Shown piece after piece: positions 9,944 through 13,367 of a stretch of 64,000 nt of DNA; positions within the stretch are counted from its first letter, which is position 1; every line of letters starts with the position of its first letter. Source of the DNA: Actinobacteria bacterium IMCC26256 (lineage in GTDB: Bacteria; Actinomycetota; Acidimicrobiia; IMCC26256); contig CP011489.1 of NCBI GenBank assembly GCA_001023575.1, forward strand, positions 1,673,001-1,737,000, written 5' to 3'. The notes beneath the pieces were generated by a model. It saw nothing but the letters and a program-made list of their open reading frames with translations, was not told the origin of the DNA and made no database searches. Made by a program: the position numbers and the translations under genes.

Positions 9944-10270
9944 ATGCCTGACTTCGCCGATGAGACCTCGACCGAACTTGAGCGCAAAGCCGCTGCTCTA
10001 AAGTGGATAGCGCTGCTAGAGACGATTACATACGTAATCCTCTTCTACTTCTGGATTATCTCGCCGAGTGCATCAGGCAAGGCGATTACCGGCTTCTTCC
10101 ATGGACTCATCTGGATGGCCTTTGTTGCCATGACGTTGATGATCACTCCCGATATTGGGTGGTCATGGGGATTCGCTGCAGCCGGAGTATTAACCGGCCC
10201 CATCGGCGGCCTCCTAGTGTGGCACCGCATCCGTAGCGGCGGCGTCCCATACAAGGGCAAGAACAACTAA
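9944..10270 (+). CDS. DUF3817 integral membrane protein
   Basis: A 108-residue protein with three membrane segments, matching the DUF3817 family of actinobacterial small membrane proteins: an N-terminal LKWIALLETITYVILF, a central FFHGLIWMAFVA with the family histidine, and WHRIRSGGVPYKGKNN at the end. Function is unknown. Its last 40 coding bases (10227-10266) are repeated almost exactly at 10292-10331, and a third diverged copy lies at about 12258-12293. The gene therefore marks the left border of an odd patch of short genes and gene tails. Confidence 0.88.
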   Translation: MPDFADETSTELERKAAALKWIALLETITYVILFYFWIISPSASGKAITGFFHGLIWMAFVAMTLMITPDIGWSWGFAAAGVLTGPIGGLLVWHRIRSGGVPYKGKNN

Positions 10271-10331
10271 CGCCAAGGATGCAGTATTGGCGCATCCGTA
10301 GCGGCGGCGTCCCATACAACGGCAAGAACAA
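10227..10331 (+). repeat. Direct repeat of the DUF3817 3' end (two 40-bp copies)
   Basis: Bases 10227-10266 encode the C-terminal residues of the DUF3817 protein; bases 10292-10331 repeat them with one difference (g to c at the third-last variable codon). The copies are 65 bp apart, so the second is in another frame relative to the first and lies outside the gene. A 36-codon frame starting at 10279 would read through the second copy but is most likely a by-product of the duplication. Confidence 0.9.
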
Positions 10332-10357
10332 ATCGCGAGCGACACAAATCAAGTGGC

Positions 10358-10702
10358 TCAGAGGGAAGTTGCAAGAGTTGCAGCGCTGACTGCGAGCATG
10401 CCGATGGCTGGAAGGGTTCCCTTCAGGCGATCCTTTACTCGGATGTGAGCCCCAACGGCAAGGACAAAGTAGATCGACAAGCCCAACGCGGCAGCAACTC
10501 CGATTTTGTCGACAGTGAGACCGACAATCAATCCAGCCGCTGCTGCGATCTTGATCAGGCCGAGAACAGTGCAGAGGTTGGGCGGACAATGAACTGTTTC
10601 AGCCGCTCTCATCACGCTCGGTAGTTTGAGAAAGTCTCCCATCGCCGATGCGGTACAGAGAACAGCGAGTACCACACTGAGGAAAGAGTTTGCTGAATCC
10701 AT
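10358..10702 (-). CDS. DoxX-like small membrane protein
   Basis: A 114-residue, four-helix membrane protein resembling the DoxX_2-like family: a first helix with a short SAMGDFLKLP, then the LGLIKIAAAAGLIVGL helix with the family lysine, and paired C-terminal helices around an AHIRVKDRLKG loop. DoxX-like proteins are of unsettled function; some support redox or thiol stress responses. It is the only minus-strand gene in the patch between 9.9 and 12.3 kb and is flanked on both sides by fragments of other genes. It starts with ATG at 10702. Confidence 0.8.
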   Translation of the reverse strand: MDSANSFLSVVLAVLCTASAMGDFLKLPSVMRAAETVHCPPNLCTVLGLIKIAAAAGLIVGLTVDKIGVAAALGLSIYFVLAVGAHIRVKDRLKGTLPAIGMLAVSAATLATSL

Positions 10703-10790
10703 TATTGCGAAGAATAACGCATCAGCGATGCTCGCCTTAGTCAGTTGTTTACGAAATCAATTGCTGCATCGTTGGTTGGCCGATTCGTAA

Positions 10791-10985
10791 GGGGTTGCTT
10801 CAACCAATGGCGGCGTGCCTCCCTTTGGTCACAGCACTCAACTACGTGTGTTAGTTGATCCAGATTTGTTGCAGTACGACGAGGTGTGGGCGGCTGCGGG
10901 CACGTCGAACTACGTGTTCGGCGCTGCTCCGGCAGACATTGCGGGTCTTGCCGGTGGAGTGGTCACCTCCCTAAAGCGCTCCTAG
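10791..10985 (+). pseudogene. 3' fragment of a YbaK/aminoacyl-tRNA deacylase gene (copy A)
   Basis: Following an in-frame TAA at 10788-10790, an open frame of 64 codons to a TAG at 10983-10985 encodes the C-terminal half of a YbaK/ProX-type editing domain: the GGVPPFGH motif, a VDPDLL block and DEVWAAAGT. No start codon or N-terminal half is present upstream, so it is a gene remnant. From 10794 it aligns without gaps, over exactly 192 bp, with a second fragment at 11609-11800. The start of the fragment carries a GGTTG-CTT-CAACC inverted repeat. Confidence 0.82.
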
Positions 10986-11017
10986 AAAAGTGCTGACCTG
11001 CGAAATAAAGTAGTGAC

Positions 11018-11413
11018 ATGGCAAATAGCAACGAAACAAGCCGAGTCCTTCACGCCTATGCGAAGGCATGGCTCGCATCGGATCTTGAGAAAGTCTTGGC
11101 CTCGTACCACGAAAACATCGAACTGCATTACATGGGGGAGAGTCCGCTCGCTGGAACTCATCGCGGACTTGATGCCGCATTCGCCGTTCTTGCAAAGGCA
11201 TCAACGAGTACGGCTCGCAAGTTGATCGATGTTGAAGATGTTCTCGTGGGGGATTCTCTTGGTGCTTTGATTGCTGTTGAAGAGCTCGGTGACACCGCCA
11301 AGCGAGTGCGTCGCGTTTTGTTGTACAGAGTGCAAGATGAGAAGTTGCGCGAATGCTGGCTCTTTGATGAAGACCAGCGCTTTATTGACTCCATGTGGTC
11401 TAAGGAAGAATGA
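11018..11413 (+). CDS. SnoaL-like / NTF2-fold protein
   Basis: A 131-residue protein with the NTF2-like pattern: an N-terminal helix VLHAYAKAWLASDLEKVLASYHENIELHY, the GLDAAFAVLAKA helix, and four C-terminal strands ending RECWLFDEDQRFIDSMW. Such proteins are usually small-molecule isomerases, cyclases or binding proteins; no catalytic assignment is possible. The DUF1272 gene follows 4 bp downstream and is probably co-transcribed. The pair sits exactly between the two YbaK gene fragments, as if carried as a unit. Confidence 0.85.
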   Translation: MANSNETSRVLHAYAKAWLASDLEKVLASYHENIELHYMGESPLAGTHRGLDAAFAVLAKASTSTARKLIDVEDVLVGDSLGALIAVEELGDTAKRVRRVLLYRVQDEKLRECWLFDEDQRFIDSMWSKEE

Positions 11414-11417
11414 ACAA

Positions 11418-11594
11418 ATGTTAGAGATGCGCGATGTATGCGAGAAGCGTTCTGCTCACTTAGCGGAATCTGGCGAAGCCGTGATTTGCAGTTTTGAATG
11501 CACCTTTTGTGTGGACTGCGGACAACTAATGGAGCATCGCTGTCCGAACTGCGGAGGAGAACTTGCCAGACGTCCGCGTCGCGTTGCCACCTGA
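11418..11594 (+). CDS. DUF1272 small zinc-ribbon protein
   Basis: A 58-residue protein matching DUF1272: it begins MLEMRDVCEKR, has ICSFECTFCVDCG and ends with RCPNCGGELARRPRR. These cysteine pairs form a predicted zinc ribbon; the function is unknown. The second position of the first Cys pair, usually Cys in members I recall (CxxC), is Arg here, so one metal site may be degraded. The ATG at 11418 follows the SnoaL-like stop by 4 bp. Confidence 0.85.
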   Translation: MLEMRDVCEKRSAHLAESGEAVICSFECTFCVDCGQLMEHRCPNCGGELARRPRRVAT

Positions 11595-11608
11595 CTTCAT
11601 CCCCACAG

Positions 11609-11800
11609 GTTGCCTTAACCAACGACGGCGCGACCCCGTTTGGTCACAGCACGCAGTTGCACGTGTTCGTTAATCCTGGCTTGTTGCAGCACGACGAGGT
11701 GTGCCCTGCTGCTGGAACATGGAACGACAACTGTGGCGTAAACCCGAATGAGATCGTGCGTGTCGCCCGTGGAGTACTCACCGACCTGAAGGGCGCATAA
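11609..11800 (+). pseudogene. 3' fragment of a YbaK/aminoacyl-tRNA deacylase gene (copy B)
   Basis: A 63-codon frame plus TAA matching the C-terminal half of a YbaK domain (TPFGHSTQL, LLQHDEV, AAGT). It aligns codon for codon with copy A (10794-10985), about half the residues being identical, but is more eroded: the usual GGVPP is DGATP and DEVWA is DEVCP. No start or N-terminal half is present. It begins 14 bp after the DUF1272 stop and carries a GGTT-GCCTT-AACC inverted repeat at the same place as copy A. Confidence 0.8.
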
Positions 11801-11841
11801 ATCACCCATTCCGAAGGGATCATTGAAGTTATCCTTCACAC

Positions 11842-12243
11842 ATGACCGATAGACCAGTCCTTCACCTCTCCTTGCCAGTGGATGATCTTCACGCCGCAAG
11901 GGATTTCTACGAAAACACACTCGGGTGTCGTATTGGACGCGAGCGAGAAGATTGGTTCGATGCCTGGTTCTACGGTCTACAGCTAACGCTGCAGTTGAGA
12001 CCGCTTGAAGTAATGACTGTCAGCCAACAAGATGTTCGGCATTTTGGAGTCGTCCTTCCCTCATTGACAGAGTTTGATGAAGTTGTAGAACGTGTTGCGG
12101 TATCCGGGCATCCTTGGATCTCAAAACCTGAGATACATAGCGACGCCGAGTTAAACGGAAAACTTGGAGGTAAACTTGCAGACCCCAGCGGGAATATCAT
12201 CGAAATTAAGTTCTATGCGGATAGCGCTGACTTTCTGAGTTGA
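11842..12243 (+). CDS. VOC-family (glyoxalase/bleomycin-resistance) protein
   Basis: A 133-residue vicinal-oxygen-chelate protein: the N-terminal HLSLPVDDLHAARDFYENTLGCRIG, a central RHFGVVLPSLTEFDEVVERV and a C-terminal LADPSGNIIEIKFY, with His, His and Glu in positions usually used for metal binding. The family includes glyoxalases, dioxygenases and antibiotic-binding proteins; activity here is unknown. Its TGA (12241-12243) is followed directly by the 3'-tail-like element at 12244-12293. Confidence 0.9.
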   Translation: MTDRPVLHLSLPVDDLHAARDFYENTLGCRIGREREDWFDAWFYGLQLTLQLRPLEVMTVSQQDVRHFGVVLPSLTEFDEVVERVAVSGHPWISKPEIHSDAELNGKLGGKLADPSGNIIEIKFYADSADFLS

Positions 12244-12293
12244 GGTTCCTAACCAAAGGCGGCGCCCCAGACAAGCGCAAGAACAACGAACGC
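12244..12293 (+). repeat. Hybrid gene-tail element at the right border of the small-gene patch
   Basis: The left part, GGTTCCTAACCAAAGGCGGCG, resembles the start of the two YbaK fragments (GGTTG..CAACCAA then GGCGGCG). The right part, from GGCGGCG to AACAAC, resembles the DUF3817 tail with only a few differences. All copies share the same reading frame through the Gly-Gly codons. It therefore looks like a recombination product of the two tail types. Confidence 0.6.
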
Positions 12294-12302
12294 TCACTTC
12301 TC

Positions 12303-13334
12303 TCAGTCAGCTGCGTCTGAGACCTTCACTAGAAGTTTTCCTGTGTGCTCACCAGTGAAGAGTCTGTTTAGTGTCGCAGGAGCATTCTCTAAGCCTTCTA
12401 CAACCTCCACTGCATAAACGAGAGAACCGTCAAGCACGAGGGGCAGGAGTGCTCCTATTGCCTCGATAAAGCGGTCTAGGTAATCAAGGAGCAAGAACCC
12501 CTCCATACGTGCGCGCTTGTTCACAAGTTCGAAGGTGTTAAAGACTGGCGGGAGAGATTCAGCGGTGTAATGCGAGATCGCTCCGCATACTGCAACTCGA
12601 GCACCAATTGCGAGGTTCGCTAAGACTGCGTCAAGTATTTCTCCGCCCACGTTGTCAAAATAAACATCAACACCATCCGGGCAGAGTGCTGATACCCGCT
12701 CCTCAACATTCTCAGTCTTGTAATTTATGCAGGCATCGAAACCTAGATCCTCGACTACCCAGCGACACTTCTCATCGGTTCCTGCTATTCCAATAACACG
12801 TGCACCAGCGATGCGCGCCAACTGACCTGCAACTGAACCAACGCCTCCTGCCGCTCCAGAGATTACGAACGTCTCTCCAGCTTCGAGCTTTGCTACATCG
12901 TGCACGCCGAACCAAGCCGTGAGGCCGGTAGATCCAAAAATGCTAAGCACATCGGTTGCGGGCAGCCCCGGAGGGATCACGTTTGCAGCATGCTCGCCAG
13001 CGTCAATTACTGCATAGTCCTGCCAGCCGAGGAGGCCGAGCACTAGATCTCCGATTGCATATAACTCACAGCGAGTATCCACCACAACACCGAGCCCTGC
13101 AGCACGTACAACATCTCCTATCGGCACGGCTGGCATGTAGGAGTCCTCCTCGCGCATCCAGACTCGGTTAGTTGGATCAACCGATAGGTATGCCATGCGA
13201 ACAATCGCCTCGCCCTCTCCAGCCTCGGGGATAGGCCCCTCGACGGTCTTCAGGCAGTAGTCGCCTACCAGGCCATTAGGGCGCTCCGTGAGAACAATTC
13301 GTCGATTAACCAATGAAGACTCTGTATCTGCCAT
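12303..13334 (-). CDS. Zinc-independent NADP-dependent oxidoreductase (MDR superfamily, CurA-like)
   Basis: A 343-residue medium-chain dehydrogenase/reductase like leukotriene B4 dehydrogenase or CurA, reducing C=C double bonds of enones with NADPH. The Rossmann signature SGAAGGVGSVAGQLA lies near residue 160, after the STGLTAWFGV helix, and a YFDNVGGEILDAVL block follows. No structural or catalytic zinc cysteine cluster is seen. I prefer the ATG at 13334 because the family's start block follows it; a longer frame to 13367 exists. It is divergent from the oxygenase gene, the starts lying about 33 bp apart. Confidence 0.92.
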   Translation of the reverse strand: MADTESSLVNRRIVLTERPNGLVGDYCLKTVEGPIPEAGEGEAIVRMAYLSVDPTNRVWMREEDSYMPAVPIGDVVRAAGLGVVVDTRCELYAIGDLVLGLLGWQDYAVIDAGEHAANVIPPGLPATDVLSIFGSTGLTAWFGVHDVAKLEAGETFVISGAAGGVGSVAGQLARIAGARVIGIAGTDEKCRWVVEDLGFDACINYKTENVEERVSALCPDGVDVYFDNVGGEILDAVLANLAIGARVAVCGAISHYTAESLPPVFNTFELVNKRARMEGFLLLDYLDRFIEAIGALLPLVLDGSLVYAVEVVEGLENAPATLNRLFTGEHTGKLLVKVSDAAD

Positions 13335-13367
13335 ACCAAAGAGGTTGCCACATCTAACATCCCCCAT

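Follow-up and report, generated by a model that had tools for sequence, protein, structure and literature searches.

Arrays of small genes joined by copies of the ybaK 3′ end in Acidimicrobiia

Integrons are the textbook gene cassettes of bacteria, and they depend on a single enzyme and a single type of site. Additive islands of Candidatus Actinomarinales have a tRNA as their anchor and cassettes that end in a partial repeat of it (PMC7771536), and plasmids of Acinetobacter carry Xer-dependent pdif modules (PMC6449649). Here we describe a patch of small genes in the freshwater organism Actinobacteria bacterium IMCC26256. The patch lies in a 64,000-nt stretch (the window; CP011489.1 positions 1,673,001-1,737,000) of a genome of 2.46 Mb in a single contig. 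It proves genuine and exemplifies a gene-cassette array that is widespread and of a type apparently hitherto undescribed; our literature search, among openly accessible journal papers, found no description of arrays built on ybaK tails.

From left to right the patch consists of a DUF3817 gene, a second copy of that gene's tail, a minus-strand DoxX-like gene, YbaK tail A, SnoaL and DUF1272 genes, YbaK tail B, a VOC gene and a hybrid tail. An earlier note, made from the sequence alone, had listed these elements in this order, and we could confirm all of them, including the 3′-end copies, the Pfam domains (DoxX_2, SnoaL_2, DUF1272, Glyoxalase (VOC) and DUF3817) and the GGCGGCG/GGVP core, which is present at every join. 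The features are given below, with motif L as defined further on; G001 and G003 are draft genomes of congeners, and G002 is a more distant congener.

9944..10270, plus strand: anchor gene, DUF3817 membrane protein (Pfam PF12823; syntenic in G001, G003 and G002)
10238-10248, plus strand: core at the DUF3817 3′ end, GGCGGCGTCCC, array entry site
10226..10331, plus strand: 65-bp tandem duplication of the DUF3817 tail, copies 10226-10266 and 10291-10331 (repeat search, 98 % identity)
10332..10791: cassette 1 cargo, DoxX_2-family membrane protein, gene 10358-10702 on the minus strand (Pfam)
10792..10808, plus strand: motif L before tail A, GGGTTGCTTCAACCAAT (L consensus and family-wide pattern search)
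10809..10985, plus strand: YbaK tail A, core and 3′ third of ybaK, open to the stop codon TAG
10986..11606, plus strand: cassette 2 cargo, SnoaL_2 gene 11018-11413 and DUF1272 gene 11418-11594 (Pfam)
11607..11623, plus strand: motif L before tail B, AGGTTGCCTTAACCAAC
11624..11800, plus strand: YbaK tail B, NPN-type (the same tail type precedes the VOC cassette in three other genomes)
11801..12243, plus strand: cassette 3 cargo, VOC/glyoxalase gene 11842-12243 (Pfam)
12242..12257, plus strand: motif L of the last cassette, GAGGTTCCTAACCAAA (from the sequence; overlaps the VOC stop codon; compare locus L031 in G003)
12258..12290, plus strand: hybrid tail, core joined to a DUF3817-type tail, array end (71 % to the DUF3817 tail)
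12303..13367, minus strand: right anchor, zinc-binding quinone-reductase-like gene (Pfam ADH_N_2/ADH_zinc_N; syntenic in G003 and G002)

A 41-nt stretch at the 3′ end of the DUF3817 gene (10226-10266) is present in a second, near-perfect copy (10291-10331) and in a degenerate third one (12246-12286, 71 %), and the DUF3817 tail stands as a direct repeat of the anchor 3′ end at both ends of the array. The extra copy is missing from G001 and G003. We note that in G003 the quinone-reductase 3′ end (L031 6240-6290), when read in reverse, also contains GGCGGCGTC about 65 bp from the DUF3817-type core, which might be why the window has a tandem repeat of 65 bp. Tails A and B are 71 % identical over 192 nt, and a Pfam scan of the G001 tail identifies the C-terminus of the YbaK-like tRNA-editing domain (PF04073 positions 76-122).

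At the same locus the flanks of G001 and G003 are 90-96 % identical to the window at the DNA level and the contents differ. The only cargo in G003 is an amidohydrolase gene (608 residues); behind it AACCAAAGGCGGC leads into a DUF3817-type tail, and this hybrid runs on into the native downstream sequence of DUF3817. G001 has the same amidohydrolase gene, a YbaK tail, the DoxX cassette of the window (95.7 %, L030), a tail that is 93 % identical to tail A, and a further gene. In G002 an unrelated hydrolase gene occupies the locus and tails are absent. Since the contents differ by whole units, the locus varies unit by unit, with its limits at the tails, which supports the earlier proposal of a cassette array or recombination hotspot; gene order is not fixed among the relatives, and none of them has an intact ybaK in place at this locus; the earlier note had named the opposite of these two observations as speaking against it.

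The note had also suggested a search for an intact ybaK and a recombinase. In the whole 2.46-Mb genome the tail queries matched no ybaK besides tails A and B (a very divergent ybaK could escape such queries), and it was a class-wide search with the tail protein that found intact genes, in a family (f20) of the same class but a different order. There, tail-only open frames stand in rows adjoining complete ybaK genes; 142 of the 222 f20 genomes searched had matches, many with several tails on one contig. Eighty stretches were retrieved for comparison. The count of non-terminal tails is 104, spread over 48 genomes (12 genus-level groups, four families), besides 54 intact ybaK genes. A typical array reads intact ybaK, gene, tail, gene, tail; G465 (L123) has five tails behind ybaK at a spacing of 0.7-1 kb, and G096 (L073) provides another example. 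One genome per species was searched, and most are draft metagenome assemblies, which break at repeats; 13 of the 54 intact ybaK genes lie less than 300 bp from a contig end, directly past their stop codon, as expected if assemblies break at arrays.

Some loci depart from this arrangement. In G113 (L077 2494-6374) two complete ybaK genes follow each other in tandem, with genes for an EcoRI-type adenine methylase and for a 503-residue protein without a Pfam match between them, and the second ybaK has a tail of the cassette type. Tails lacking a canonical L occur in two further families (L078 in G276 and L080 in G145), and the cargo of L078 is 82-91 % like cargos of f20 arrays.

All cargos of the window (DoxX-like, SnoaL, DUF1272 and VOC) recur in f20 arrays at 81-91 % DNA identity, in other combinations and behind intact ybaK. 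The DoxX cassette is found in G573 (L150, 91.4 %) and in part in G373 (L072), the SnoaL cassette in L076, L138, L167 and L171 (83-86 %), DUF1272 in L072 (81 % over 109 bp), and the VOC cassette in G280, G441 and G459 (89 % over 457 bp, with the match starting at the tail stop codon); the amidohydrolase gene of the congeners likewise has relatives of 89-92 % in f20 arrays. Cassettes are thus shared across species and orders, and the same cassette may be the first behind intact ybaK in one genome and an interior one in another. Most consist of one gene, and the best frames run forward relative to the tails in 47 of 68 cases and in reverse in 21. Cargo families include acetyltransferases, PNPOx-like proteins, glyoxalase, SnoaL, DinB, TrmO, cation efflux and aminoglycoside acetyltransferase; no integrase was seen among the proteins checked individually in Pfam, nor in a list of 25 families that covers 60 cargos. 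Three arrays share a nucleotidyltransferase-like cargo, probably DUF6036, each time with an adjacent small reading frame (L072 5091-5912, L073 12095-12592 and L074 13082-13573), and by analogy with large integrons the two could be a toxin-antitoxin-like stabilizer. As for carriers, viral contigs contained no relative of the tail or the VOC cassette, and the plasmid matches listed were ordinary YbaK genes at low identity.

Cassettes shared between genomes extend from the tail stop codon to a conserved 16-bp motif, L (GGTTKCCTAAACCAAY), and beyond these sharp limits identity falls to that of ordinary tail divergence. On the left, dozens of pairs have cargo homology that starts at the stop codon of the tail, in many cases with the first base past it; which stop codon is used mostly follows the cargo, and no conservation was seen 3′ of the stop codon. 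On the right, similarity spans L and breaks, at AACCAA, in the spacer of 2-4 nt before YGGCGTGCC; in pairs of homologous cargos L is 88 % identical and the spacer 62 %. The L consensus is present at 85 of the 104 non-terminal tails vs 0.9 % of random positions, and in 221 genomes of the family a search for the exact pattern gave 17 matches, all at such tails (one of them truncated), with no match for the reversed control. The joining of the tails through their core was recognized in the earlier note, which missed this motif, carried upstream of the core by most cassettes. L is more conserved (67 %) than the third codon positions of the tails (58 %) although the adjoining spacer is close to random (31-35 %), and this speaks for L as a functional site. 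Together with TTTGG of the ybaK tail it makes a dyad (CCAA, 14 to 19 nt, TTYGG) at 76 of 99 array sites vs 7 of 54 intact ybaK genes; covariation indicative of a hairpin is weak, the pairs being only slightly above independence. In three genomes a ybaK tail carries the same non-canonical left flank, CGAATCCGACCGCTACGCAATC or close to it, in place of L (L126:1755, L161:1844 and L162:1962; 0-based core positions, oriented strand), and this flank possibly marks a further entry site.

The tails had been described as decayed. They are repeated, as claimed, but 91 of 101 non-terminal tails are open, and their differences are distributed over the codon positions in a ratio of 24:20:56, near that of intact ybaK (21:18:61), which indicates that they have mostly evolved as coding sequence; the tail that ends the first, intact ybaK of an array is functional in that role. 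In closely related pairs of intact ybaK genes with unrelated downstream DNA the body of the gene is more alike (e.g. 94.7 %) than the tail (85.1 %), whereas the single usable pair with a common first cassette reverses this (tail 90 %, body 86 %), and we conclude that intact ybaK exchanges its tail along with the cassette. Within arrays the upstream tail is linked to its cargo (82.5 vs 78.1 %, P=0.001, n=54 pairs, which are non-independent because genomes are shared), more strongly in the 3′ half of the tail and less with distance from the cargo, a gradient that homologous recombination predicts; for the downstream tail ten pairs did not demonstrate linkage. Several tail lineages occur within one array, which implies that tails are imported and are not local copies, and tails are rather homogeneous within the large-genome genera. 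Many pairs have tails about 88 % alike and cargos behind them 96-100 % alike, so that tail and cargo are not simply one travelling unit and conversion between tails must be invoked.

We propose, with a probability of roughly 70 %, that these are integron-like but distinct gene-cassette arrays, exchanged through a gene tail and inserted behind intact ybaK. The repeated unit would comprise L, an unconserved spacer of 2-4 nt, the core (YGGCGTGCC) and, up to the stop codon, the final ~177 bp of ybaK, and a cassette would be a core-tail, usually one small gene, and L. Cassettes would be inserted in succession behind intact ybaK, and each insertion at that position would swap the 3′ third of the gene for the tail of the newcomer, which keeps YbaK in function and moves the older tails further downstream. 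The array of the window would have jumped to another place that has this core, namely where the DUF3817 gene ends. The cassettes would presumably pass through circular intermediates, and the machinery considered below is likewise an inference.

In 15 array genomes of several genera nothing exceeds the 265-bit cut-off of the integron integrase model TIGR02249 (the best match scores 77 bits and falls into two parts on either side of model positions ~183 to 236), and the earlier remark that no integrase was in view extends to the whole genome of the window, where none passes that model. Serine recombinases are absent from 14 of 15 array genomes and Y1/HUH transposases from 14 of 14, and IS110 is present in only two of 14. 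No array contig has an integrase near the array, recombinase matches being on other contigs or far off, and several array genomes have just two tyrosine recombinases, both XerC/XerD-sized. The likely dif, CCATAATnnnCGTTATGTCAA (found with two to three mismatches), is unlike the cassette consensus, and XerCD acting at a dif-like site was accordingly rejected.

The linkage gradient and the lack of a dedicated enzyme favour host homologous recombination between tails, and that this does most of the shuffling, with exchange or entry focused at the L/core junction, is in our estimate an even bet. Homologous recombination alone gives no account of the conserved L or of the sharp break at AACCAA. Against the cassette-array reading as a whole, what precedes the first cassette at the DUF3817 site is a tail of DUF3817 instead of ybaK, and the pairs whose cargos are more alike than their tails require conversion between tails; moreover the assemblies are mostly draft metagenomes and the pairs of the linkage test are not fully independent. 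The conserved L, the break at AACCAA and the entry at DUF3817, which has only the ~8-bp core in common, favour a site-specific step, as do the near-random spacer beside L and the excess of the dyad at array sites over intact ybaK. A recombinase acting in trans (XerC/XerD or an unrecognized enzyme) might then use the L/core dyad, with L-core as the attC-like and the ybaK core as the attI-like site. Given the array contigs without a nearby integrase, the mere pair of XerC/XerD-sized enzymes in several genomes and the dissimilar dif, we regard such a recombinase as a serious but somewhat doubtful candidate. Taken as a whole, gene capture without a dedicated enzyme, in which the 3′ third of ybaK is the mobile joint of a class-wide cassette pool, newcomers bring replacement ends and selection on YbaK keeps the joint intact, is an idea to which we give a little under even odds.

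Other readings fare worse than the cassette array exchanged through the ybaK tail. An ordinary additive flexible island, in which unrelated integrating elements each target the ybaK 3′ end, would have the architecture of the tRNA-anchored cassettes with partial tRNA repeats of Candidatus Actinomarinales (PMC7771536), but a common L closes unrelated cargos, most cassettes have one gene and no integrase was found among the cargo proteins checked, and we consider it unlikely. Duplication of the target tail as a general rule was rejected for the f20 arrays, where tails foreign to the host ybaK lie inside arrays; at DUF3817 it is possible. An integron remnant (CALIN), that is, an attC array minus its integrase, would account for small, mostly single-gene cassettes, mostly in one orientation (47 forward, 21 reverse), with repeated sites and no integrase; it is largely refuted by the nature of the repeat, a coding gene tail, by rightly arranged attC boxes (RYYYAAC and GTTRRRY) at only two of 99 sites and by the lack of an IntI above the cut-off in the 15 array genomes, and is very improbable. 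Slightly less credence still goes to the view that a local ybaK simply decayed or was duplicated in tandem and left passenger genes between its remnants. The position of f20 tails downstream of intact ybaK and the homogeneity of tails in large-genome genera would fit it, but the genome of the window has no other ybaK match, tail lineages are mixed within arrays, 91 of 101 tails are open and the same cargos occur in other positions and orders; for the window itself it is ruled out by the relatives at the same locus.

The comparable array found here in about a dozen genus-level groups shows neither the integron enzyme nor the integron site, which raises the testable question of whether cassette arrays can arise through ordinary recombination. 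The use of a housekeeping-gene end as the joint would explain its upkeep in working order. Motif L plus the ybaK tail also provides a marker with which to recover an actinobacterial cassette pool that includes acetyltransferase, efflux and resistance-like genes.

Of the systems described, the pdif modules (PMC6449649) resemble these arrays in having discrete gene modules between short recombination sites and no recombinase of their own, but the ybaK-tail arrays are chromosomal, their site is unlike the dif of these genomes, no dif-like XerC/XerD site stands at both ends of a module, and the modules include a gene tail. The islands of Candidatus Actinomarinales (PMC7771536) are likewise of Actinomycetota, with variable content at a fixed locus and a fragment of the anchor gene repeated at the ends of inserts, and here too each insert is followed by a direct repeat of an anchor 3′ end, in the form of the ybaK tails and of the DUF3817 tail at both array ends. 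In place of a tRNA anchor and a site-specific integrase in the element we find protein-coding anchors (ybaK and DUF3817), motif L, long arrays of mostly single-gene cargo and a move to a second anchor gene. With integrons the arrays share rows of small, unrelated and mostly same-orientation cassettes, each with a repeated site, which are common to several species and reordered; the cassettes can be exchanged, mostly hold one gene and follow a fixed first site. They differ in lacking intI above the cut-off and attC boxes, in having the first site inside a housekeeping gene, and in a repeated site that is the coding 3′ third of that gene with a 16-bp motif. The array works like integron cassettes and fails the defining features tested, intI and attC, and there is a fair chance that the ybaK-tail array is a kind of its own.
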